The position numbers and the translations under genes are program-made. From a virus: a DNA stretch of 42,259 nucleotides. Positions 4,283 through 31,144 of the stretch are shown here, piece by piece. The stretch is taken from positions 1 through 42,259 of IMG/VR virus record IMGVR_UViG_3300043567_001340; one strand, 5' to 3'. Numbering within the stretch: position 1 is the stretch's first letter; each line of letters opens with the position of its first letter. The notes under the pieces were generated by a model. The model saw only the letters and a program-made list of their open reading frames with translations. It ran no database searches and was not told where the DNA came from.

Positions 4283-5032
4283 TTACTCTATCTCCCAAAA
4301 CTTCTTTCTTTTGTCAATATTTGATTGAAGTTTTACTAATTGTTGGTTGAATACTTTGATTTTATTATCAACAATTTTTTTCTTTGCTTCGAGATATTCC
4401 CAATAATCTTTACCTTCTTGTTTGAAACGAGCTCTATCAATTGCGCTTGTTTCATCTGAGAAAACTTTAGGTCTTCCTCTTCTTGGAGTTGAGATTTCAA
4501 CTTCAGGTTGGTCAATCACTGATGGAGGAGTTACGGGTGGTAAATCTTTACTAATGTCTTGTACAGGTTCCTGAGGTGCGGGTTTAAGTCTTCTTATAAC
4601 CTTTATACTCGGGTCGTTTAAGTCAATTTTTGGCTTGTTCTTTGAACCTAGTGGCCTACCTCTTTTTTTACCAATATTATCTTGTATTTCATCTTTTAGA
4701 TAATTTGCAATTTTGGTTTTTACAATAGGAAATCTTTCCATTGCAGTTTTGATAAAATTTTGAGCATCTCTTGGACTCAAACTATTCAAGAAACTATCAA
4801 TATAGTCTGTGGCTAAAACTAAATCATCACTTGATTTTGTGGCCTTTGTAGTATTTGTCGACAACCAACTTTGAAATTCCTGAAGCATTGGTAATGACTG
4901 AATTTTTACAGGATTATCTATTGTACTATCCAAAATCCAACTACCCATATTAGATGCAACCCAATTAAATTTCTCATCGGAATAGTATCTTGCCTCTGTG
5001 ATATAATCTTGGAAATAATTTAGAAATCTCAT
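4283..5032 (-). CDS. AT-hook DNA-binding protein with T4-like capsid-targeting N-terminus (putative internal virion protein)
   Basis: A 249-aa basic protein. Two AT-hooks with the GRP core are visible: KKRGRPLGSKNKPK (about residues 122-135) and TPRRGRPKVF (about 183-192), separated by a proline-rich stretch; the C-terminal 60 residues are a charged coiled coil. The N-terminus MRFLNYFQDYITEAR closely resembles the MKTYQEFIAEAR capsid-targeting sequence of T4 internal proteins, with a possible gp21-type cut after ITE (residue 13). I infer a protein packaged with, and bound to, AT-rich phage DNA, then injected. A TATTTATA box lies 12 bases upstream of the ATG. It could instead be a non-virion nucleoid-type protein. 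Confidence 0.6.
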   Translation of the reverse strand: MRFLNYFQDYITEARYYSDEKFNWVASNMGSWILDSTIDNPVKIQSLPMLQEFQSWLSTNTTKATKSSDDLVLATDYIDSFLNSLSPRDAQNFIKTAMERFPIVKTKIANYLKDEIQDNIGKKRGRPLGSKNKPKIDLNDPSIKVIRRLKPAPQEPVQDISKDLPPVTPPSVIDQPEVEISTPRRGRPKVFSDETSAIDRARFKQEGKDYWEYLEAKKKIVDNKIKVFNQQLVKLQSNIDKRKKFWEIE

Positions 5033-6317: not shown

Positions 6318-7985
6318 ATGAAAGTTTTAGGTTTTTCGAATGGCCACGACAAAGGAGCGGTCATAATTGAAGACGGAAGGATACTTGTGGGTATAACACA
6401 AGAAAGACTATCGAGAATCAAACACGATGGAGCTTATCAAGGTGGTAAAATCCCTTTTGAGTCAATAAACTATTGTCTGAATGCGATAGGTTGTTCGATT
6501 AGGGAGATTGATTATTTTGTATATAGTACTACGGAAAATATTGATGATGTAGAAGACCAATTCTTTTCTAAATTTTCACATATAAGTCGAGAAAAGATAC
6601 AATTCATTCCACATCATTTAGCACACGCTTACTCAACATTTTTCAGTTCGGGATTTGACGAAGCGGCTGTTGTTGTTGCGGATGCTTCAGGTAGTATCAT
6701 AACTTATAAAAATAAAACCCACGAATGGTATGACCCCAAAAAGTGGGACTTGAATCCAGATTTTGATTGGGCTGAAGGAATTTCAATTCTTCATTTAAAA
6801 AAGGACACTTATGAAGAACACTATAAAAGATGGGTAAAGTTTCCGGTTCCTTGGAATACTAATGAAGAAACTTCCTTGGGAACAATGTATTCTGAGGGAA
6901 CTCTACAATTGGTATACGAACCCGCCAATCATACTTGGAGCGCCGGAAAACTGATGGGGTTGGCATCATACGGTGACCCAAAATTGGTTTCTGAAGCACC
7001 TGAGTTTGTGAAAGAAATTGACGGGGAAATATCTCTTTTAAATAACAGCATCTACCCAAAAGTTACTTGGGCGTCAGATTTCTTTTCAAGGTCGGTTGCT
7101 GCAGGAATATATCAAAGGGAACAAGAAAGAGCTTCACTAATTTTAGCGAAAATGGCAAAAAATATGACCAATTCAAAAAACATTTGTGTTGCTGGAGGTT
7201 CTTTCTTGAATTGTAATTCTAATGAACTAATTCTGAAATCAGGTTTGTATGAAAATTGTTTTTTCTTACCTCCTGCTGATGACAGTGGTATCCCATTGGG
7301 GTGCGCATGGTATGCACTTCAGAAAGTTACAGAAATCAAAAATACTTCAAAAATTTCTCCTTATTTTGGGAGACCATACCATAAAAATGAGATTATATCA
7401 GCACTGAACGAACACCCTGAATTAGATTTCATAGAATATAAAGATTTCAACGAATTAGTTGAGCAAGTAACCTATTGGTTGACACAAAACAGAGTTATTG
7501 GGTGGTTTCAGGACGGTTCTGAAATCGGACCTAGAGCGCTTGGTAATAGGTCAATTGTCGCATCCCCAATGACCAAATGGATGTGTGGTCACATAAATGC
7601 AGATATTAAAGGTAGAGAGTGGTACCGCCCTTTCGCACCCGCAGTCCTTTACGAATATCAGAATGAAATATTCGATATGGATTATTTTTCTCCTCACATG
7701 TTAGTGACTACAACTGTGAAAGAATCCTGGAGAGAAAGAATACCATCTGTAGTTCATATTGATAATTCTGCTAGAATTCAATCTGTAACAGAAAAAAATA
7801 ATTATAAATTTTATACGCTTATTAAAAGTTTTTATGAGAAAACTCAGGTTCCTGTTCTTTTGAATACAAGTTTCAACGGGCCGAGTGAGCCAATTGTCGA
7901 AACCCCAACAGACGCAATCAAAACTTTTATTACCCGAAATTTAAATTATTTGGTTCTCAATAATTTTTTAATTTGGAAAAACTAA
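6318..7985 (+). CDS. Carbamoyltransferase, TobZ/NodU/CmcH family (copy 1)
   Basis: A 555-aa enzyme of the two-domain O-carbamoyltransferase family, which uses carbamoyl phosphate and ATP to make carbamoyl-AMP and pass the carbamoyl to a hydroxyl. The N-terminal Kae1-like domain starts VLGFSNGHDKGAVIIEDG and has the iron motif HHLAHA (residues 99-104). The C-terminal YrdC-like domain has WFQDGSEIGPRALGNRS (about 394-410), RPFAP (about 437) and LLNTSFNGPSEPIVETP near the end. All key motifs look intact. A second, divergent copy follows after 1 base. Known targets are sugars, antibiotics and, in some phages, 5-hydroxymethylcytosine in DNA; the target here is unknown. Confidence 0.9.
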   Translation: MKVLGFSNGHDKGAVIIEDGRILVGITQERLSRIKHDGAYQGGKIPFESINYCLNAIGCSIREIDYFVYSTTENIDDVEDQFFSKFSHISREKIQFIPHHLAHAYSTFFSSGFDEAAVVVADASGSIITYKNKTHEWYDPKKWDLNPDFDWAEGISILHLKKDTYEEHYKRWVKFPVPWNTNEETSLGTMYSEGTLQLVYEPANHTWSAGKLMGLASYGDPKLVSEAPEFVKEIDGEISLLNNSIYPKVTWASDFFSRSVAAGIYQREQERASLILAKMAKNMTNSKNICVAGGSFLNCNSNELILKSGLYENCFFLPPADDSGIPLGCAWYALQKVTEIKNTSKISPYFGRPYHKNEIISALNEHPELDFIEYKDFNELVEQVTYWLTQNRVIGWFQDGSEIGPRALGNRSIVASPMTKWMCGHINADIKGREWYRPFAPAVLYEYQNEIFDMDYFSPHMLVTTTVKESWRERIPSVVHIDNSARIQSVTEKNNYKFYTLIKSFYEKTQVPVLLNTSFNGPSEPIVETPTDAIKTFITRNLNYLVLNNFLIWKN

Positions 7986-7986
7986 A

Positions 7987-9582
7987 ATGAGTAGAATTTA
8001 TGGTATGTTCACAGGCTCACACAGCCCGTGTATAGCTTACTTGGAAGATGGAGAAATAATTTTTTCTATAGAAGAAGAACGTTTGACTAGAATAAAGGCG
8101 GGTGATAATTACGACATTCAGGCCGAAATGTGTTTGAACAGGGCAGAGCTTGAAACCAACGTGAAATTTCATGAAGCGGATTATAGGGTTATTGCTCAGC
8201 CTGTACCCGACGAATTTTTGAGAAGAATTTCCAAAGGTAAACCTTATGAAAGGGTAAGTCATCACACCGCCCACGCTTACGGTGCATATTTTACAAGTGG
8301 ATTTGAAGGTAAAACGATAACCATAACATATGATGGCGGTGGTCAAGAATCAGTAATGAAAATTTTCCTTTGTGAAAATGGAAAAATGACCTTAGTGAAA
8401 AATATGCCATATGCTGGTTTTGCCAGCTTATCCCATTTGTGGGGTTTTAGTACGTCTAGTATGAGAGGTTATGATGAACATAATGAGGGAAAATGGAAAA
8501 TGTGTAAAGATGAGGGAAAACTTATGGGAATGGCGCCCGATGGATTTTATGATGAAAAAATATATAAAATCTTGAATTCATTAGTAAATTATGAAAATTT
8601 GAGATTTTTCCCCTCGGGTACCGCACCAAAAACACAGTTTATTTGTGATATGATGTTTGAAGATGGTTTTTTCGAAAGTCAAATAAACAAAGAAATGTTT
8701 TGTTTCAATTTACAAAAATTGACAAATGATTTGATGTTGAGATTTATAAATGATTTACACAAGTTATATCCAGAATATACAAAACTATGTTTCGCCGGAG
8801 GTCTTTTTGCAAACGTTAAACTAAATCAACACATAAACGAACTACCTTGGGTTGAGGAAGTTTACATTTTACCTCCGATGGGTGACGAGGGATTAGCTCT
8901 CGGTGCCGCAATTTTTAAATCTGTAGAATTAGGTGAATGGACTAAACCAAAACGTTTAAAAAATGTTTTTCTCGGTTCGAAGTATTCTGAAGAAAAAATT
9001 CAAAGGGCTTCAACTTCATTCAATTTTAAGAGAAGAGAGTATGATGTAAAAGAAATGGCAAGAAAAATTGCTGATGGTAATATAGTTGGATGGTTTCAGG
9101 GTGGGTCTGAATTGGGTCCAAGGGCTTTGGGTGCTCGAAGTATTTTAGTAAAACCCACAGATAAAGAAACACATAAAATTTTGAACGGGAGACTTAAAAG
9201 ATATGATACTATGCCATTTGCACCTATCGTCATGTCCGAACACTTTGATGAAATTTTCACTTGTTCTAAGTCAAAATATACTGCACAATTTATGACTATG
9301 TGTTATTCCACAAAAGAGGAGTGGATAGATAAAATTCCTGCAGTAATTCAAAAGTCAGATAAAACCGCAAGACCTCAAGTTGTTGTAAAAGAATCAAATC
9401 CTAAATTTTGGGAGATTTTAAACGAGTATTACTTGATAACAGGTATTCCTGTACTTCTGAACACTTCATTTAACTCCCACAATGAACCAATTATTGAACA
9501 TCCTCGCCAAGCATTTGAAACTTTATATAAAAAAATAATTGATGAACTCATATTAGAAGATTATGTATATTACTCTGAATAG
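7987..9582 (+). CDS. Carbamoyltransferase, TobZ/NodU/CmcH family (copy 2)
   Basis: A 531-aa relative of the preceding gene. It keeps the iron motif SHHTAHAYGAYF (about residues 88-99), YDGGG, GPRALGARS (about 373-381) and LLNTSFNSHNEPIIEHP. The conserved RPFAP of copy 1 is MPFAP here (about residue 409), so an Arg that helps bind carbamoyl phosphate or nucleotide may be lost. The two copies are clearly diverged, not a recent duplication, suggesting different substrates or a heteromeric pair. Its last 20 bases overlap the start of the next gene, which indicates translational coupling. Confidence 0.88.
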   Translation: MSRIYGMFTGSHSPCIAYLEDGEIIFSIEEERLTRIKAGDNYDIQAEMCLNRAELETNVKFHEADYRVIAQPVPDEFLRRISKGKPYERVSHHTAHAYGAYFTSGFEGKTITITYDGGGQESVMKIFLCENGKMTLVKNMPYAGFASLSHLWGFSTSSMRGYDEHNEGKWKMCKDEGKLMGMAPDGFYDEKIYKILNSLVNYENLRFFPSGTAPKTQFICDMMFEDGFFESQINKEMFCFNLQKLTNDLMLRFINDLHKLYPEYTKLCFAGGLFANVKLNQHINELPWVEEVYILPPMGDEGLALGAAIFKSVELGEWTKPKRLKNVFLGSKYSEEKIQRASTSFNFKRREYDVKEMARKIADGNIVGWFQGGSELGPRALGARSILVKPTDKETHKILNGRLKRYDTMPFAPIVMSEHFDEIFTCSKSKYTAQFMTMCYSTKEEWIDKIPAVIQKSDKTARPQVVVKESNPKFWEILNEYYLITGIPVLLNTSFNSHNEPIIEHPRQAFETLYKKIIDELILEDYVYYSE

Positions 9583-10243: not shown

Positions 10244-10921
10244 ATGAATTTGACGAACGATTTTACAAATTATTACACAAAACATTTAGGAAAGGGTTCC
10301 TTGGATTTACATTATTTTGGTCAACAAATTGAATCCTCTATGACCCCTTACATTCTTGAAGAAAGAGAAATGAGGGCAACTCAAATTGATATTTTTTCGA
10401 GGTTGATGAGAGATAGAATCATTTGGGTTGCAGGTCCCGTAGATGACCGAATGTCCACCATAGTTCAAGCTCAACTTATGTTTTTGGATAACTCAGATAA
10501 GACTGATATTACCATGCATATCGATTCGCCTGGTGGTTCAGTAAAGAGTGGTTTATCTATGGTTGACGTTATGCAGTACATTACCTGTGATATTAGAACT
10601 GTAAACACAGGAATGGCAGCTTCCATGGGTTCAGTCCTCTTAGGTGCTGGAACCAAAGGAAAAAGAGCATCTTTACGTTTTTCTAAAACTATGTTACATC
10701 AAACATCTGGTGGTGCTGGTGGTAATATTCAAGATGCAAGAATCAATTTTATAGAATGGGAAAAAACCAACAAAATTTTATTCCAACTACTTGGAGAATT
10801 TTGTGGAAAAACTTCCGAGCAAGTTACTGAAGACTCTCAACGTGACTTTTGGCTGTCGGCCGATGAAGCTGTTGAATATGGTATCATCGATGAAGTAGTG
10901 AAAACAAAAAAGAAGGGTTAA
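10244..10921 (+). CDS. clpP: ClpP-family serine protease
   Basis: A 225-aa ClpP homologue, slightly longer than bacterial ClpP through an N-terminal extension of about 40 residues. The catalytic triad is visible: Ser127 in GMAASMGS, His152 in MLHQ and Asp201 in SQRDFWLSADEAVEYG. HIDSPGGSVKSG forms the oxyanion-hole loop. ClpP works as a ring protease with an ATPase such as ClpX, normally supplied by the host. In phages, ClpP-like enzymes serve either as regulators of host proteolysis or as prohead proteases. Here it has its own host-type promoter and a terminator right behind it, away from the virion genes, which favours early expression; a prohead role is not excluded. Confidence 0.9.
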   Translation: MNLTNDFTNYYTKHLGKGSLDLHYFGQQIESSMTPYILEEREMRATQIDIFSRLMRDRIIWVAGPVDDRMSTIVQAQLMFLDNSDKTDITMHIDSPGGSVKSGLSMVDVMQYITCDIRTVNTGMAASMGSVLLGAGTKGKRASLRFSKTMLHQTSGGAGGNIQDARINFIEWEKTNKILFQLLGEFCGKTSEQVTEDSQRDFWLSADEAVEYGIIDEVVKTKKKG

Positions 10922-12298: not shown

Positions 12299-13630
12299 TT
12301 AAAATTTTGTTTTTTCGTCAGCAAATTTTGGTTTTGGAGGTTCTGGCGCTGGAGCAGGTTTAGGTTCAGGTTTAGGTGCGGGCTTCGGTGGTTCAGGTTC
12401 AGGTCCTGGTCTATTTTTATTTTGTGATAAAAGAAGTTCATATGTTTTTTTATCTATGGTACCACTTAAAGTTCTGTTTAACGAATATAATCCGTTTGTA
12501 CTTTGATAAATTTTGATTGCCTTTTCCATATAAGGTCCGAAAAATTCATCGGTAACTTCAGGTTGTTTATTTCCTCTTAGCACATCAAAAAGGTATGATT
12601 GAAATACAGGCATTTTTTGTATACTTGCAATAATCGGACCTTTCATACATTTTTTTATTTGTTTTCTTCCACTCAAAATATCTTTCTCATTTGGTTCAGT
12701 TACAAACGAACGACAATTTTTTATCTTTGATTGATTTTCTCCTCCGTCTGAACCATCATCTTGATTATTATCTTCATTTTCATCACCAGATATTCGAGCC
12801 CTAACAGGAAATTTTTCAACTTTACCATCATCCCATGTAATTTTAAATCCTTTATTATTTTCAGTACATTCCCATTTACCTGTTTTTATTGTTTTCATGG
12901 AATCTGAAGTCTTCCATTCAGCTTTATAGTTCTTGTACAAATAAAAATCAGTTTCTTCACCCTCATAAATGGTATCTACAGGAAAATATTTATAATCACC
13001 TTTTAGACTTGTTCCCATCATTATTGCACCCGAATTATCAAGAGCGGTTTTCACACAATTCCAAACTGCGGAGTCCTCTGCTGCAGGGTTGACGGATTCA
13101 TCAGTTTTTGTAACAGTTATTTCACTACCTTGACCGACTGGAGGTGGTGCCATAAGACGAACTACGTTTGCACCTTCCAAAGTTGTAAGAACACTAGCGT
13201 TCGGTGTAGATAAATTTATAATAGCTTGAGGTGGGTCCTCAGTAAAATCAAAAGTAACATCGATTCCAAAAGTTTGATTCCAAAAAACATCTTCAGTGTT
13301 GGTTGATTTGGTAAGTACGTATTGACCACCACCCATTGTCATTTTCAACTGATTTCTAAATTGTTTGAATTTGACTTTGAAATCCTGAATAATTCCAAAT
13401 CCTTTTTTAACATACACACCTACATATTTGTCGTCGATTGGTGGTTGTACAGAAGCCTTACATCTTATGAAGATTTTAGTTCCTTTTTTACACGGAGCAC
13501 AACCACTTCTTACAGGCGGTCTTCCTGACCCTGCCCATTCTTCATCGGTGAAATCGGTAGGAGGGTCAACGGGGTCACACGGAGGATAAACTATTTGTTC
13601 GACTATTAGTTTTTTTATATTAGTTTGCAT
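12299..13630 (-). CDS. Putative internal virion protein with peptidoglycan-binding-like C-terminus
   Basis: I chose the ATG at 13630 (443 aa, MQTNIKKLIVEQIVYPP), which overlaps the upstream stop by 11 bases; the longer form from 13654 adds 8 residues. The N-terminus ends in IVE-Q, a possible prohead-protease site after residue 11. The middle is strand-rich with paired Cys (CAPCKKG). About residues 340-400 resemble a PG_binding_1 helical bundle (FFGPYMEKAIKIYQSTNG, SGTIDKKTYELLL). The tail is a Pro/Lys/Glu repeat region (PAPKPEPKPAPAPEPPK). A protein that helps the genome cross the cell wall would fit, but this is inference. Confidence 0.6.
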   Translation of the reverse strand: MQTNIKKLIVEQIVYPPCDPVDPPTDFTDEEWAGSGRPPVRSGCAPCKKGTKIFIRCKASVQPPIDDKYVGVYVKKGFGIIQDFKVKFKQFRNQLKMTMGGGQYVLTKSTNTEDVFWNQTFGIDVTFDFTEDPPQAIINLSTPNASVLTTLEGANVVRLMAPPPVGQGSEITVTKTDESVNPAAEDSAVWNCVKTALDNSGAIMMGTSLKGDYKYFPVDTIYEGEETDFYLYKNYKAEWKTSDSMKTIKTGKWECTENNKGFKITWDDGKVEKFPVRARISGDENEDNNQDDGSDGGENQSKIKNCRSFVTEPNEKDILSGRKQIKKCMKGPIIASIQKMPVFQSYLFDVLRGNKQPEVTDEFFGPYMEKAIKIYQSTNGLYSLNRTLSGTIDKKTYELLLSQNKNRPGPEPEPPKPAPKPEPKPAPAPEPPKPKFADEKTKF

Positions 13631-15722
13631 AATCTTGTGTAAACGTTCCTTCAAAAAATCTGAATTTAGGGTTGTCGTAAATATCGACCGGTTTTGTTTT
13701 ATCGATTAAATAATATTTTCCAACATTATCTGTCATTTCCGCAGCATTAGTCAAAGAAGACATTGTCATAGTATTAGGTGGAGTTGTTAGAAACTTTTTA
13801 AAATCTACTAAATTTTCTTTAAGGTTTCCTGACATATATCTGAGCTCAGGATTTTCTTTTTCCTGTTTTCTAATTAGTTCGGCCGTTGCAGCATCTAATT
13901 CTTTTTCATTGTCCACCGGTAAACCTAGACTTCTAAGTTGTTTTTCCATATCCTCTCTTATGGGCTCGAAAGGTTCCAATGCCTCATCTTTCCAACGCTC
14001 AAATGGAATAACACTTTCCCCTTCACTTACAGACTTTTTAAGTGCACTGTATAACTCATCAATCCTTGTGGCCGGATTTAATAAAAGGTTCCACAACCCT
14101 TCTGGTATACCCTCTCCAAAACCTTCTTTTACGTCCCTAATGTAAGCTCTAAAAGGATAATTAGCTTTTACATTTTCAATCATACCATCCCATGTTGTTC
14201 TTTTTATTTCCGCAAATCTTTTGTTACATTCTGAGGGTGGGATAGGTTTACCATTCTCTTCTATGAGACCGACCTTACACAATTGCCTGTATCTTTCTAA
14301 TTCTTTGTTAAAATCATCTATAACAAAATAGTTTTGATAAATTGTTGCAAAATAGTTTTTTATCAAATTTTCTACTACAGGGACCCAAATCAAATAAATG
14401 AAGGCAAATTCTATTATTGTACCAGCTTTTGTAGTCCTCATACCTAATTCCATCATTTCGGCTTTGGTGAGGGGAGTTTTATAGAGAATTTCATTTTTTA
14501 ATCTAGGAATGAATTCAAAGAAATCTTGTTCTTTAAAAGATTTCATAATTCCACCTCGAGCTTTAGCATTTTTAATCGCTTGTAGGGTTGCACCAACAGC
14601 TGGAATTTTTTTCACATGAGCCTTGAGATAAGTCATGAAAATATAATCCATTTTTTTTGTCAAATATTCTGGCGGTGTCTCCAAGACCTTTTTAACTCCC
14701 GGGTTGTTTAAAAATACCTCCAATTCTTTCTTTGGAATTGCTGAATTCGTTACAAACCAATCTTGAATCATTTGTTTATATTGTTGTTCCATCATGCTCT
14801 TTCGTCCTCGTGATATTATTGCCCACATATTGTCCAAATTTTCCAATACATCAAAACTCATTTCCTCTCCTTGTGGGTCTAAGGTTTGTTGCTTCCTCAT
14901 AATTTCAGCAACTTGACCTTCAAGGTCGTCTACAATACTAGGAACTTCTATTTTCCATTTTTTTAACAATTTATTTGGTAATATTTCTGTTGCCCATGGT
15001 ACAAATTTATACCAAAGGTTTTTGAAATAATATGGTAACAGGGCATTACCAAGCGATTTGAGTTGTGCACCCGTTCCTGTTGTCCACCATGAGTTTGAAG
15101 CGGCACTAATTTTTCTACCAGCCACTTCTATTTCAGGTACATACTTTTTCAACTGTTGTACTAAATAATTTTCAATCAACTCAATAGAGCCGTCATCTAT
15201 ATTCAAAGGACGACGACCACCACTAGCAGTACCATCAGGAACTGTAAGAGTAGATAATTTATTTTTAATCCATTCTTCGGGAGTGTAATTTTCTGCGTTA
15301 GTGTCGATATAGTCTTGTGCGAATTCTTTCATCAATTGTGAAACAGTCTTCCCCTGACTTTTTGCTATATCTTGAATCGTTTTTTCTGCTAACGCTTGTA
15401 ATTCTTCATTACTTTGTACTATTTGTTTCAGAGTCAATCTTAAACCATCATCTGTAATGTCGGCAAATCTGAAATTTGGTTTGGAAACCAAACTTTTCAA
15501 TTCTTGAAATTCAGCATTCGCCAATTTTTTTAACGGTTTACCATTATGTGTAAGCTGATATATTGCACCCTTTTCCAAAGGCTCCGCGTTGGTAAAAATA
15601 CTTTTTAAAGCGGTAAGTAACGGTTTGGGCTGTTCTAAAAGTATAGGTAAATTATTTTCTACCCCCATTATTTCTTGGATTCTTTTGAGCTCAGTTATTA
15701 CTAATTTATCTTTACGTGTCAT
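13620..15722 (-). CDS. Large putative internal virion protein
   Basis: A 700-aa, mostly helical protein. The N-terminal 30 residues (LKRIQEIMGVENNLPILLEQ) end in LLE-Q, the shared prohead-protease-like pattern. One probable membrane segment lies near residues 430-450 (IIEFAFIYLIWVPVVENLI). The rest is charged helix with many Trp-Lys clusters and no catalytic motif that I recognise. Its ATG overlaps the stop of the preceding gene by 4 bases (ATGA). With its neighbours, which also carry membrane segments, it may be ejected with the DNA. No family recognised. Confidence 0.6.
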   Translation of the reverse strand: MTRKDKLVITELKRIQEIMGVENNLPILLEQPKPLLTALKSIFTNAEPLEKGAIYQLTHNGKPLKKLANAEFQELKSLVSKPNFRFADITDDGLRLTLKQIVQSNEELQALAEKTIQDIAKSQGKTVSQLMKEFAQDYIDTNAENYTPEEWIKNKLSTLTVPDGTASGGRRPLNIDDGSIELIENYLVQQLKKYVPEIEVAGRKISAASNSWWTTGTGAQLKSLGNALLPYYFKNLWYKFVPWATEILPNKLLKKWKIEVPSIVDDLEGQVAEIMRKQQTLDPQGEEMSFDVLENLDNMWAIISRGRKSMMEQQYKQMIQDWFVTNSAIPKKELEVFLNNPGVKKVLETPPEYLTKKMDYIFMTYLKAHVKKIPAVGATLQAIKNAKARGGIMKSFKEQDFFEFIPRLKNEILYKTPLTKAEMMELGMRTTKAGTIIEFAFIYLIWVPVVENLIKNYFATIYQNYFVIDDFNKELERYRQLCKVGLIEENGKPIPPSECNKRFAEIKRTTWDGMIENVKANYPFRAYIRDVKEGFGEGIPEGLWNLLLNPATRIDELYSALKKSVSEGESVIPFERWKDEALEPFEPIREDMEKQLRSLGLPVDNEKELDAATAELIRKQEKENPELRYMSGNLKENLVDFKKFLTTPPNTMTMSSLTNAAEMTDNVGKYYLIDKTKPVDIYDNPKFRFFEGTFTQDYAN

Positions 15723-23913: not shown

Positions 23914-24970
23914 TTTAGATGCAAGATATCAAGCACTACTTGAAGACATTCTTCATTGGGGTGTGGAAAAAAAAGATAGAACAGGAACAGGCACGTTATC
24001 AGTTTTTGGACGACAAATCCGTCACAATATGAGTGAAGGATTTCCTTTACTGACGACGAAAAAGATGGCTTGGAAGACTATGGTCACTGAACTATTGTGG
24101 TTTTTAAGAGGTGATACTAATATAAAATTCTTAGTTGATAATGGATGTCATATTTGGGATGGTGATGCTTACAAAAATTATCAAAAAGTATTCATGGGTC
24201 ATGAGGATATTCCATCAAAAGAATGGTTCATTGATGAAATCAAAAAAAATTCTGATTTTGCCAAAAAGTTTGGTGAGTTAGGTCCAATTTATGGTAAACA
24301 ATGGAGATGTTGGCAAGGTTGGATGGATTTGAATGATGGAGATAGAAGAGGTTCAATTTGGTATGACCAAATCTCGAGATTGATTTACCAACTTAGGAAT
24401 GAACCTGATAGCCGAAGACTCATGGTAAATGCATGGAATGTTGCTGAACTTGATGAAATGGTTTTACCCCCTTGTCACTATGGGTTTCAAGTTTATACAA
24501 GAGAACTTTCTTACTCTGAAAGGTATAGACTTTGGTTCAATAAAAACTACGAAACCGGTATGGAGTATGATGAAAACGTAGTTCCTGATTTCGAGAATGA
24601 TTATTACGACAAAACTCCAAAAAGAGCAATTTCTCTTATGTGGAACCAACGTTCTGTGGATACATTTCTTGGGTTGCCCTTCAATATCGCATCATATGGA
24701 CTTTTACTTATGTTGCTCGGCAAATTAACAAACATGATACCTGACCAACTTATTGGTAATTTGGGTGACACACATTTATACCTTGACCACATCGAACAAG
24801 CCAAAGAACAAATTGAACGTGAACCGTTCAATTTACCTACCTTAGATTTAGATTTTGATTTCAAATTCAAAGATGGATATTTGGTAGATTGGGATGAAAT
24901 TAAATTTGAGGATTTGAAATTGAAAAATTATAAATTTCATCCATCAATCAAGGCACCTTTATCTAACTAA
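23906..24970 (+). CDS. thyA: Thymidylate synthase (ThyA type)
   Basis: A 354-aa enzyme that methylates dUMP to dTMP with methylene-tetrahydrofolate. Catalytic Cys190 lies in LPPCHYGFQVY; the phosphate-binding Arg pair is in NEPDSRRLMVNAWN; Asn260 in LPFNIASYGLL is the residue that selects dUMP, whereas deoxycytidylate hydroxymethylases have Asp here. GDTHLYLDHIEQ and the C-terminal IKAP loop are intact. At 354 aa it is longer than the E. coli enzyme (264 aa), partly through an insert of about 40 residues between the Cys and Asn motifs (SYSERYRLWFNKN and onward). Supports phage DNA synthesis. Its stop overlaps the convergent gene by 8 bases. Confidence 0.95.
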   Translation: MNNLDARYQALLEDILHWGVEKKDRTGTGTLSVFGRQIRHNMSEGFPLLTTKKMAWKTMVTELLWFLRGDTNIKFLVDNGCHIWDGDAYKNYQKVFMGHEDIPSKEWFIDEIKKNSDFAKKFGELGPIYGKQWRCWQGWMDLNDGDRRGSIWYDQISRLIYQLRNEPDSRRLMVNAWNVAELDEMVLPPCHYGFQVYTRELSYSERYRLWFNKNYETGMEYDENVVPDFENDYYDKTPKRAISLMWNQRSVDTFLGLPFNIASYGLLLMLLGKLTNMIPDQLIGNLGDTHLYLDHIEQAKEQIEREPFNLPTLDLDFDFKFKDGYLVDWDEIKFEDLKLKNYKFHPSIKAPLSN

Positions 24971-25562
24971 AGGAAATATATATATCTAAAAATTTCTTAC
25001 TGATTTCTCTGGCCTTTGAATTTACCAAATCCATATTATCAACATCCATATTTTTGGCCGCCATATATTCTATCAAGTTTGAAATAAAAAGATTTCTAGC
25101 CTTTTCGGCATCGTTCAAGAATTCTTGAAAATCCTCATCATCTTCTTTACCTTCTCCGTAATACCGGTCAATATGGTCCTTACCTGCATAAATCAAAGGT
25201 GCTGCACCGAACATATTTACAATTCCTGTGTCCCTCAACTTGTATAGGAAATCTCTAAAAAATCTCCAATCAAAATGTTTGAAAATTTCTTTATTTCTTT
25301 TAAAAGACTCCAAAGCCGAATCCCTGGACTCATTGATTTTGTCGTCTACAATTTTTTTCCATGCGTCGGTGACAGTAAGTAAGGAAAGTGAAGAGCCATT
25401 ATCCCATTTTACTGAAATTATTTCCGAATCCTTTTCGAAAGGGTCTTTTGTTATTGCCGTAACTTTCCCCAAAGTACCAGGAGTTACAGAAGTTTCACCT
25501 TCCATGTATAAACACATTATTCTATCTCCAACAGACAAAGGAGCATTTGTTATACTTTTCAT
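24963..25562 (-). CDS. Unknown protein with SH3-like (DUF4314-like) N-terminal domain
   Basis: A 199-aa protein from the ATG at 25562 (MKSITNAPLSVGDRIM); the open frame continues upstream over the box region, which argues against the longer form. Residues 10-65 resemble the small barrel of DUF4314/KOW-like domains (VGDRIMCLYMEG, PGTLGKVTAITKD, ISVKWDNGSSLSLL). The rest is helical and acidic. The function is unknown. A TATTTATT box lies 5 bases upstream, back to back with the box of the 25596 gene. Confidence 0.6.
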   Translation of the reverse strand: MKSITNAPLSVGDRIMCLYMEGETSVTPGTLGKVTAITKDPFEKDSEIISVKWDNGSSLSLLTVTDAWKKIVDDKINESRDSALESFKRNKEIFKHFDWRFFRDFLYKLRDTGIVNMFGAAPLIYAGKDHIDRYYGEGKEDDEDFQEFLNDAEKARNLFISNLIEYMAAKNMDVDNMDLVNSKAREISKKFLDIYISFS

Positions 25563-25567
25563 ACTAT

Positions 25568-25575
25568 AATAAATA
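25568..25575 (-). promoter_or_regulatory. TATTTATT box (putative late promoter)
   Basis: Minus-strand TATTTATT five bases before the ATG at 25562. Together with the plus-strand copy at 25585-25592 it forms a divergent pair separated by 9 bases. Confidence 0.5.
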
Positions 25576-25584
25576 CTACGAGTA

Positions 25585-25592
25585 TATTTATT
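25585..25592 (+). promoter_or_regulatory. TATTTATT box (putative late promoter)
   Basis: Plus-strand TATTTATT then GTT and the ATG at 25596. The context TATTTATTGTTATG is close to that at 42216 (TATTTATAAGTTATG). Confidence 0.5.
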
Positions 25593-25595
25593 GTT

Positions 25596-26216
25596 ATGGA
25601 TTTTGTAATTACTGAAAATCAATTTAGAAGATTAGTGTTGGAAACCAACAGTGAGAAATTTTCCGAATACATGAAGGAAATGTATTCCTTTGCAAAAAAT
25701 ATTGTACACCGTGTAAAGAAAAAATATTCCATCAACACAAAATTATTACTTACATGGGGCGCGGCATTAGGTGGAATGGTCCTACCATTGGACCAACTGA
25801 TAAAAACAGGAAATTTTCAATTAGATGAAAATCAAGCCGCTTTGATATTGATTGGTTGTGCGGCGGCAATCTTCTACGATAACAAAAAGTATTTCAAAAG
25901 AATTCATGAAGAAATCAAAAATCAAAATTTGGAAGAACCTTTTGAGAAAGTTCTATCAGTAGGATTGCAGTTAAAAAAATCTTTCATGAATTTTATTCAG
26001 TCGTTGAGAATCAGCTTGAGTTCGATTTCAGAAATAGTATCCTACGGATTTCTAGTCCCAATAGTTATGGATATTGTTGATTTTTTGAAAACAGGAGATT
26101 TGGAAAAAAATTTGGATTTGATTGTTTCAAGAATTATAGGTTCAGGATTAGTTCTCGCCGTTTCCGAAATTTTGAGAGAATTATTATTACAAATAAAAAA
26201 CAGAATTTCTAAATAA
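25596..26216 (+). CDS. Membrane protein with possible capsid-targeting N-terminus
   Basis: A 206-aa protein. N-terminus MDFVITENQFRRLVLETNS resembles the helix-xxE pattern of other late-type proteins here, with a weaker match (VLE-T). Hydrophobic segments lie at about residues 50-66 (LLLTWGAALGGMVLPLD), 81-94 (AALILIGCAAAIFY), 147-162 (SYGFLVPIVMDIVDFL) and 180-195 (IGSGLVLAVSEILREL). It could be an injected membrane protein or a host-membrane protein. No family is recognised. Convergent with 26209, overlapping by 8 bases. Confidence 0.6.
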   Translation: MDFVITENQFRRLVLETNSEKFSEYMKEMYSFAKNIVHRVKKKYSINTKLLLTWGAALGGMVLPLDQLIKTGNFQLDENQAALILIGCAAAIFYDNKKYFKRIHEEIKNQNLEEPFEKVLSVGLQLKKSFMNFIQSLRISLSSISEIVSYGFLVPIVMDIVDFLKTGDLEKNLDLIVSRIIGSGLVLAVSEILRELLLQIKNRISK

Positions 26217-28842: not shown

Positions 28843-29167
28843 TTCTCTGTTTTCCTTTTCTGAAAAAGGGTCTTTTGTTCCAATGTACCTTTATCTTATT
28901 ATCTAAAGATAATAGTTTGAAAAAATCTTCTACATCTTTTTCTACAGATTTATGTTTTCTATGTGGGACATCCCAACCTTTAGACACAAAAGACTCAGGC
29001 TCAGTATCAATAAAAACATGAATTATTGGAGGATTATAACTTCCCTTTAGGATATCGTGAACAATAAACTTGACATCTTCACCTTCTGGTAAATCTTGTT
29101 TGATTCTAGAGGTTACAACTGAATCCAAATAATTTTGTAAATATTTTTTTATTCTTTCGACATCCAT
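28826..29167 (-). CDS. Unknown protein
   Basis: A 113-aa protein from the ATG at 29167 (MDVERIKKYLQNYLDS); the two codons before it overlap the upstream stop. It has an alpha/beta pattern (VKFIVHDILKGSYNPPIIHV, FIDTEPESFVSKG) and a basic tail (NKRPFFRKGKQRN). No family is recognised. The ATG overlaps the stop of the 29167-29793 gene, so the two are coupled. Confidence 0.55.
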   Translation of the reverse strand: MDVERIKKYLQNYLDSVVTSRIKQDLPEGEDVKFIVHDILKGSYNPPIIHVFIDTEPESFVSKGWDVPHRKHKSVEKDVEDFFKLLSLDNKIKVHWNKRPFFRKGKQRNDFSI

Positions 29168-29793
29168 CACCAAGCATTTTTAGAAGCCAAACCTAATTGT
29201 TTTGCATATCTTCCAACATTACATGACCAATAACCAGCGGTAGTTCTATCCTTTTTTTGGTCACATCTATGTCGTGCTCTGAAAGATTTGGCAGCACCTT
29301 TATTTCTATTCCTAACTTTCAATTTAGGGTCACCAAAGGTTACTTTTTTAACACCACCCCCTTTTGATTTAACATAAACCGCAAATTTCTTAGGACCACC
29401 CGGTGTTCTGAAAGGTTTATTTAATTTTACATTTTTACCTCTGTGTTTGGCTTCTTCGATGATTTCTTCCTCTGTCCATTCCTCTAAAATATAGGGTGCA
29501 TCCAAATAAACTATCTCTCCGTCTATTTTTACCTTCTTTCCTAAGTCTGATTCAACCATCAATGTATCTTCTTCATTTAATTCAATAGAACCGTTTTCCC
29601 AAAGAGTTCTCACCTCATTTACCAATTTAAAATATCCCTCTGAATAAACTCTAAAAATGTTATTTGTAAGTGATAATCCGTTTTCAATGTGATATTTTAA
29701 TGAATCAGAAATTTCAACATTTTCTTTCATCACTAAAGACCTGTCCAAGTATTCTTCTAAACTCTCTTTTATTAGGGTTTTCAGTTTATCCAT
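29167..29793 (-). CDS. Unknown protein with basic Cys/His C-terminal domain (DUF5872-like)
   Basis: A 208-aa protein. N-terminal helix MDKLKTLIKESLEEYLDRSL resembles the targeting-like helices of other late-type proteins, but without a clear IxE-Q junction. The acidic middle (EEWTEEEIIEEAKHRG) is followed by a distinct basic domain of about 85 residues: KLNKPFRTPGGPKKFAVYV, VTFGDPKLKVRNRN, SFRARHRCDQKKDRTT and YWSCNVGRYAKQLG. I associate this pattern with DUF5872-type proteins, common in marine phages; the fixed Cys/His may bind metal. A TATTTATA box lies 17 bases upstream. Likely virion-associated, by promoter class only. Confidence 0.6.
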   Translation of the reverse strand: MDKLKTLIKESLEEYLDRSLVMKENVEISDSLKYHIENGLSLTNNIFRVYSEGYFKLVNEVRTLWENGSIELNEEDTLMVESDLGKKVKIDGEIVYLDAPYILEEWTEEEIIEEAKHRGKNVKLNKPFRTPGGPKKFAVYVKSKGGGVKKVTFGDPKLKVRNRNKGAAKSFRARHRCDQKKDRTTAGYWSCNVGRYAKQLGLASKNAW

Positions 29794-29833: not shown

Positions 29834-30025
29834 ATGAAAAATTTAGTGGGATTTTTATTCCTTTTCTGTAGAATTTATTGTGGTTACAAAATATTCATGT
29901 GGTTATTCCAACGGAGTTATTATAAGAATAGTTTACCCATATCAGAAATTGAACACATATTAGTGTTCATAATTTTTGACATATGGATGATGATGTCCAT
30001 ACGAGATATAAACAAAGATTTTTAA
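29834..30025 (+). CDS. Small two-helix membrane protein
   Basis: A 63-aa protein with two hydrophobic stretches: residues 4-26 (LVGFLFLFCRIYCGYKIFMW) and 39-55 (IEHILVFIIFDIWMMMS). The upstream TATTTTTAGTTATG is a one-mismatch copy of the late-type box. No family is recognised; it could affect the host membrane. Its stop overlaps the end of the PPK2 gene by 4 bases. Confidence 0.5.
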   Translation: MKNLVGFLFLFCRIYCGYKIFMWLFQRSYYKNSLPISEIEHILVFIIFDIWMMMSIRDINKDF

Positions 30026-31125
30026 GGCCTCAAAACGGCTAAAACTTCAGGATAAACTCCCTCTAAAACTTTTTCGTTTTTACCTTCATATGGTATGTTC
30101 TGTAAAACATATCTTATTGAATTCAACCCTGAGATTCTTTTATCTTGTGAATCAATAATTACCCACGGGTGATTTACTGTTGAAGTTTTATCAAACAATT
30201 TTTCTTTGAATTCTGTGAATCTGTCCCATAAATCTTGCATTTGAGCGTCATTAGGGGAATACTTCCAATATTTTAATGGAGACTGTTGTCTCATCTGAAA
30301 TCTTCTTTTTTGAGTTTCTTTATCAATTGAAAACCATAGTTTAAAGAGATAATCTCCTTCTTTTACCAAATCGTTCTCGAAATCCTCAACGTTCTCCATG
30401 AAATCTTCATATTCTTCAGGGGTACCATATCCCATAACAGGCTCGACTAAACCTCTATTATACCAACTTCTGTCGAGGAAATTTATCATTCCTGGTTTGA
30501 TTTTGTCTCGGTATCTATTCCACCAATTTTTCCTTTCTTCGGGGTTGGGTATACCTAAAGCAATTACATTATAGTATCTTGGATTTAAATTTTCTGTAAA
30601 TTTTTTGATTGTGGAACCCTTACCCGCAGAATCTCTACCCTCGAAAACTATAATCACAGTTTTTCCCGTTTTTCTCAACCATTCCTGCATCTTCACTAGT
30701 TCAATTTGTAGAAAATATAATTCCTTCTTATAAACCTTTTTAGGTAAAATTGACGGTTCCTCGGGTTCAAATTCATAATCTTCACTTTCAGGTTCGACCC
30801 CATAACCACCTCTTTCTCTGAATTTCAAAGAGATAAGGATGTTTCTGAAATATTCTTCAATATTCTTTTTTTTATCCCCTTTTTTGAGAAGAATTTTTCT
30901 TAAACCTCTATCCACCATCTCAAAATCGATAATTCGGTCCTCCGACAATTTAGATATTTTCCAAAGTAAATTTTCTATTTTTTTGTTGTAGAGTTTCAGA
31001 AAGGTTAGAGTATCAACAACTTTTCTTAGATTGACGTTCATAAAAGGGGCATCGTTTGAAGTTTTTTTTGCTTCAGAAATCCCCATTACAATTTTTATTT
31101 TTTCAATTTCCTCGTGAATTAGCAC
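30022..31125 (-). CDS. ppk2: Polyphosphate kinase 2 (PPK2) with N-terminal extension and capsid-targeting-like leader
   Basis: A 367-aa protein. Residues about 128-367 are a complete PPK2 core: Walker A FEGRDSAGKGST (161-172), lid region GIPNPEERKNWWNRYRDK, Walker B NFLDRSWYNRGLVEPVMGY (about 215-233), YWKYSPNDAQMQDLW and VIIDSQDKR. PPK2 uses polyphosphate to phosphorylate nucleotides (NDP to NTP or NMP to NDP). The first about 125 residues are extra; they begin MLIHEEIEKIKIVMGISEAKK, a helix ending ISE-A as in the capsid-targeting sequences of the other late genes. The start is GTG; no ATG lies nearby. A TATTTATA box is 11 bases upstream. I infer a packaged, injected enzyme that can regenerate nucleotides from host polyphosphate. 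Confidence 0.85.
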   Translation of the reverse strand: MLIHEEIEKIKIVMGISEAKKTSNDAPFMNVNLRKVVDTLTFLKLYNKKIENLLWKISKLSEDRIIDFEMVDRGLRKILLKKGDKKKNIEEYFRNILISLKFRERGGYGVEPESEDYEFEPEEPSILPKKVYKKELYFLQIELVKMQEWLRKTGKTVIIVFEGRDSAGKGSTIKKFTENLNPRYYNVIALGIPNPEERKNWWNRYRDKIKPGMINFLDRSWYNRGLVEPVMGYGTPEEYEDFMENVEDFENDLVKEGDYLFKLWFSIDKETQKRRFQMRQQSPLKYWKYSPNDAQMQDLWDRFTEFKEKLFDKTSTVNHPWVIIDSQDKRISGLNSIRYVLQNIPYEGKNEKVLEGVYPEVLAVLRP

Positions 31126-31136
31126 AAAATTTTCTT

Positions 31137-31144
31137 TATAAATA
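31137..31144 (-). promoter_or_regulatory. TATTTATA box (putative late promoter) of ppk2
   Basis: Minus-strand TATTTATA followed by AAGAAAATTTT and the GTG at 31125; almost identical to the box region at 23335-23342. Confidence 0.55.

Follow-up and report, generated by a model that had tools for sequence, protein, structure and literature searches.

In bacteriophage T4, internal proteins are targeted to the head by approximately ten N-terminal residues, and the prohead protease gp21 cleaves after L/I-X-E (PMC9026906). Foreign proteins fused to this capsid-targeting sequence (CTS), enzymes included, are packaged and delivered into the host (PMC9026906). The jumbo phages phiKZ and SPN3US also package many inner-body and ejection proteins, which are processed after a Glu; their propeptides mostly exceed 100 residues, and the parts of these reports covered here mention no polyphosphate kinase among them (PMC5694885, PMC13282480). 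Polyphosphate kinases of PPK2 class I convert NDPs to NTPs using polyphosphate, and PPK2A prefers NDP phosphorylation over the reverse reaction by about 75-fold (PMC8776046). Viral ppk2 has likewise been described from metagenomes, where virus-encoded ppk1 and ppk2 are treated as auxiliary metabolic genes for polyphosphate accumulation; the part of that report covered here does not mention a packaging signal, a phage lineage or ejection (PMC13188868). CTS-packaged enzymes, packaged T4 and phiKZ proteins and viral ppk2 are already known, whereas the literature searched, which lay mostly outside subscription papers and preprints, contained no description of polyphosphate kinase as a packaged protein.

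The window, the whole stretch of DNA analyzed here, is a viral record of 42,259 bp and represents a fragment of its phage's genome. It encodes a PPK2 with the following features:

30022..31125, minus strand: whole PPK2 coding sequence, 367 aa, GTG start (ORF, Pfam, orthologues)
30025..30747, minus strand: PPK2 catalytic core, residues 127-367, class I-like (Pfam, phmmer, alignment, Foldseek)
30748..30816, minus strand: acidic, disordered linker, residues 104-126 (AF2 pLDDT <50 over 104-131)
30817..31041, minus strand: four-helix domain specific to phage PPK2s, residues 29-103 (AF2, profile searches)
31072..31125, minus strand: N-terminal tag, residues 1-18 (MLIHEEIEKIKIVMGISE), predicted capsid-targeting sequence with predicted cleavage after E18 (tag HMM, alignment, phi-x-E retention in 35/36, AF2)
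31137..31144, minus strand: TATTTATA motif, likely promoter core of tagged and structural genes (motif scan)

The GTG start is correct, because dozens of orthologues place an ATG at the same position; a wrong start codon for this gene was thus ruled out. The core is complete with its Walker A and B motifs, as an earlier note on this DNA had claimed: the Pfam family PF03976 matches residues 129-351 (E=6e-71, 239 bits against a cut-off of 22.3), and Walker A GRDSAGKG (163-170) and DRSWYNR (218-224) vary little or not at all across an alignment of 40 relatives, each of which has intact catalytic motifs; the catalytic Asp and Arg residues of the family are retained. In a phmmer search against solved structures, the single-domain chains of the class I enzymes from F. 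tularensis and S. meliloti scored 225 and 210 bits, respectively, compared with 149 for L. fusiformis (class II) and 93 or less for M. ruber (class III). The same two class I enzymes were the best Foldseek matches of the core, with F. tularensis on top (5LL0/4YEG; S. meliloti 3CZQ; 45% identity over about 230 columns), and Walker A, DRSWYNR and the Asp at D117 of F. tularensis, aligned with phage D218, are common to these enzymes and the phage protein. As the top phmmer chain was 3czp, a two-domain protein of P. aeruginosa whose score is summed over both domains, membership of class I, the NDP-phosphorylating type, is likely by sequence rather than proven. Elsewhere in the window, at 6318-9582 (plus strand), two adjoining proteins resemble carbamoyltransferases by eye.

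The phage enzyme differs from its cellular relatives in the 126 extra residues that precede the core, arranged as tag, variable linker (residues 19-28), four-helix domain and acidic linker. The earlier note had described about 125 extra residues beginning with a capsid-targeting-like helix; a targeting sequence is predicted for the 18-residue tag, which ends in the IxE-A site that it had pointed out (ISE/A at residues 16-19, the slash marking the predicted cut), and the remainder comprises linkers and the four-helix domain rather than targeting sequence. In AF2 models, which were built from close-clade sequences only (without rows from the phages of 635-735 kb), the tag forms a helix over residues 2-14 with low confidence (pLDDT about 57), and the model of residues 29-125 has pLDDT values mostly >90 over its first 70 residues. 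The four-helix domain has no significant structural match in the PDB or in BFVD (predicted viral structures). Its profile recognizes several phage subclades (E 1e-29 to 6e-8). In the 635-735-kb group the match is at the right place but weak: the best rows gave E values of 4e-4 to 0.01, and a profile-profile comparison gave E 2.5e-5 with a probability of 75%. Neither this extension profile nor the tag profile matched at the corresponding place in the cellular PPK2s examined, so the extension did not prove to be a common cellular feature, a finding that the earlier note had said would refute its idea. Long N-terminal parts do exist in betaproteobacterial PPK2s, but these too gave no match to either profile at the corresponding place. 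A seeming match to residues 6-349 on a bacterial contig (L168) consisted of separate pieces joined together, and its ORF has no such extension.

PPK2s of the phage kind are encoded on approximately 350 viral-contig stretches, and close relatives of the window's enzyme on 136. The phages concerned are huge, T4-related and all uncultured; the gene is also carried by the 635-735 kb records LR756501-3 and LR745206, which we take to be Mahaphages. In a tree of 93 rows (48 phage and 45 cellular cores), all 48 phage PPK2s fall into one clade with support of 100 and a long stem (0.44), and the extension is recognized in several phage subclades; the phylogeny and comparison of relatives suggested in the earlier note agree with a phage-specific lineage. 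Compared with the cellular class I enzymes examined, this lineage forms its own clade and carries both the four-helix domain and the targeting-like tag, which the cellular enzymes lack. For genome-wide comparisons, a relative of 321,283 bp (G001) serves as a proxy for the phage of the window, to which it is linked through orthologous contigs; in G001 and LR756502, genes were called simply as the longest ORFs.

A tag HMM built from residues 1-24 of PPK2 alone matched six further G001 proteins, always at the N-terminus; immuto, a 642-kb genome and the cellular PPK2 loci gave no match. With the exception of one weak pair (E 0.002), the six proteins have no similarity beyond the tag. By these comparisons, the PPK2 tag is exchangeable between unrelated proteins. 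Tags of the A, B and C types begin 28 of the 328 G001 proteins against 0.4 expected from internal windows, a count based on regex rules written after inspecting N-termini, so that the HMM count alone is free of that bias. Among unique sequences, the A-type tag occurs in 58/100 phage and 0/93 cellular PPK2s, and a strict T4-type tag in 16/100 and 1/93, respectively. The A-type tag and the T4 CTS are alike in design, being short with a phi-x-E end, but not in letters. Within a hypervariable stretch, phi-x-E is retained in 35 of 36 tag variants (shuffles: mean 6.9, maximum 15). The PPK2s of the 635-735-kb phages carry T4-like tags (FIKFINE/E, FSNFIREE, NYDNFMNE/S), a style found at 24 of 811 LR756502 N-termini against 2.2 expected. 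An ortholog test of common tagging between G001 and W01 gave a weak result, on which no conclusion is based: Fisher p was 0.18 under the strict rule and 0.03 when the phi-x-E rule was loosened. A tblastn search of the tag peptides against cultured phages gave no match and is uninformative at such a short query length; a search with a long degenerate DNA pattern also gave none.

Two further genes of the window have N-termini of these kinds:

13620..15722, minus strand: 700-aa protein unrelated to PPK2, same tag type (ITELKRIQEIMG), TATTTAT upstream (ORF, tag HMM, motif scan)
4283..5032, minus strand: 249-aa protein with the T4-like N-terminus MRFLNYFQDYITE/A, TATTTAT upstream (ORF, motif scan)

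Tag-like N-termini with TATTTAT upstream were also seen at 25596-26216 (plus strand; MDFVITENQFRRLVLE) and 29167-29793 (minus strand; MDKLKTLIKESLEEYL). In G001 (L095-L111), mainly at 183-242 kb, the N-terminal peptides of dozens of short proteins fall into a few types (MNLNENISRVKELMG..E; KIIRLTESDLIRLVKRVIKEQ; MKYIITESQ..L.EQ; MRELIKKILREA), and almost every one of them ends in phi-x-E; these proteins constitute a candidate packaged protein set. The tagged G001 proteins that could be recognized include a glucosaminidase, an L,D-transpeptidase (YkuD), a dual-specificity-phosphatase-like protein, a DHH plus TseH-like protein, an SprT/M91-like protein and a weak match to a phiKZ internal protein; no replication enzyme was present among the 30 tagged G001 proteins scanned. 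Tagged neighbors on L105 (18406-19546, minus strand) and L106 (574-1470, minus strand) include, by eye, a protein resembling P-loop kinases and a weakly similar pair that look ParB-like; a Pfam search gave no family for them.

The head genes of the relatives provide further evidence. Homologues of the gp21-type prohead protease were found in G001 and relatives (E about 1e-22 to 1e-24), and the propeptide region of the capsid protein ends LINE/A in G001, G003 and G006, a site assigned by comparison with T4; these three genomes thus contain both the protease and a capsid site that matches the tag. In the 635-735-kb phages, the capsid protein site is INE/N or MNE/N. The 42-kb window itself holds neither gene and is connected to them through orthologous contigs. 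The phage PPK2 thus resembles the T4 internal proteins and Alt in its short N-terminal peptide with a gp21-type phi-x-E end, in the diversity of the cargo and in the accompanying gp21- and gp23-type head genes; it differs in that the cargo is a metabolic kinase and that packaging is predicted from sequence. Separately, the window encodes a ClpP-like protease at 10244-10921 (plus strand), which also matches phage head maturation protease families (PHROGs) and is not preceded by TATTTAT. The counterpart of this protease in G001 shares 49% identity with a protein in LR756502.

In several related phages, PPK2 is fused to other domains, one of which has a separate homologue in the window:

24963..25622, minus strand: DUF4314 protein (Pfam; blastp to L379, L387, L346 and L347)

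Two fusions (L379, L387) have the order DUF4314, helices, PPK2 and C-terminal domain, and two (L346, L347) contain further inserts; both end domains match the window's DUF4314 protein in blastp (E 6e-19 to 2e-8). As both parts flank PPK2 in related phages, a common role of the DUF4314 protein and PPK2 is suggested. Other PPK2s are fused C-terminally to a phage lysozyme (L394) or to a Hydrolase_2 cell-wall hydrolase (L395), with INE/Q or VNE/Q at the joints. In each fusion examined, phi-x-E precedes the helices and immediately follows the PPK2 core, a post hoc observation on a motif present in 27% of internal 22-mers; the arrangement would fit cutting by the head protease.

The glucosaminidase and YkuD enzymes among the tagged proteins, together with the lysozyme and Hydrolase_2 fusions, would also accord with a tag that directs PPK2 and the other proteins to the baseplate, tail or membrane instead of the head, in which case the enzyme may still be virion-borne. 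However, the tags end in a prohead-protease-type site that matches the site of the capsid protein in both phage groups, and the same enzyme bears T4-like tags in some phages; we therefore consider such a destination unlikely. Packaging of PPK2 in the phage head is the reading in which we place considerable confidence.

The TATTTATA motif lies on the strand of the PPK2 gene, with its 5' end 19 bp upstream of the start codon. Its TATTTAT core is found upstream of 47/49 PPK2 orthologues, compared with 1.1% of random G001 60-mers, and the most enriched words upstream of G001 genes contain it. In G001 it precedes 31 of 37 tagged but 70 of 291 untagged genes (p=1.7e-12); in the replication block, 3 of 40 untagged genes have it. 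The signal is directional, since the reverse complement shows no significant difference between tagged and untagged genes. Genes with TATTTAT upstream further include those for the scaffold-like protein, gp21, portal and sheath; within 60 bp upstream of the capsid gene it was not found. The box described in the earlier note as late-type is thus present far beyond chance, whereas its lateness is a functional guess from the accompanying genes, as TATTTAT corresponds to the T4 late box read on the opposite strand. Expression of PPK2 only early in infection, which the earlier note had also named as refuting its idea, is not supported by the sequence, the motif being shared with other tagged genes and certain structural ones and not with the replication block; synthesis from this promoter-like motif would be late.

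Late synthesis would also suit an ordinary auxiliary metabolic enzyme acting in the infected cell, for example by supplying ATP for late DNA packaging, with an N-terminal peptide that has no targeting role. PPK2 is indeed known as a virus-encoded metabolic gene (PMC13188868), and class I enzymes yield NTPs from NDPs (PMC8776046). This explanation, however, accounts neither for an N-terminal peptide common to unrelated proteins nor for the persistence of phi-x-E and its presence at the fusion joints, and we regard it as very unlikely.

A head-packaged PPK2 could act as follows. The enzyme would be made late in infection from the TATTTAT motif, loaded by the phage into its own head through the N-terminal tag and cut at E18. 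Given a T4-type address tag at its start, it would then probably be injected with the DNA into the bacterium, where it would most likely move phosphate from host polyphosphate to NDPs, generating NTPs before phage gene expression. The proposal of the earlier note is partly supported: its packaging idea is independently strengthened by the tag on unrelated proteins, the gp21-type protease with its capsid site, the phage-specific tags and the phi-x-E fusion joints, while presence in the particle, ejection and use of polyphosphate within minutes of infection are inferred. If PPK2 is packaged, NTP formation is somewhat favored as the reaction. PPK2 reactions are reversible, and PPK2A with Mn2+ makes polyphosphate at PPK1-like rates (PMC8776046), so a packaged enzyme might mainly run in reverse, draining host nucleotides or supplying a counter-ion or chaperone polymer; the 75-fold preference of PPK2A for NDP phosphorylation (PMC8776046) and the proximity of the phage core to class I enzymes make this highly improbable. 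The reading as a whole, in which a head-packaged PPK2 is ejected and makes NTPs from host polyphosphate early, we judge to be probable.

A broader proposal, to which we give slightly less than even chances, is that an ancient phage-only PPK2 is a standard head-packaged, ejected enzyme of huge T4-related phages that draws on host polyphosphate to power infection in its first minutes, in some phages being made as a polyprotein (DUF4314-PPK2, PPK2-lysozyme) cut by the prohead protease. The tag could serve as a sequence rule by which to predict the proteins that huge uncultured phages package, with approximately 30-40 candidates in one 321-kb genome. If the packaging reading is true, these phages would inject an enzyme of energy metabolism that taps the polyphosphate store of the host; polyphosphate physiology would thereby be tied to phage success, and the enzyme may offer a route around nucleotide-depleting defenses.
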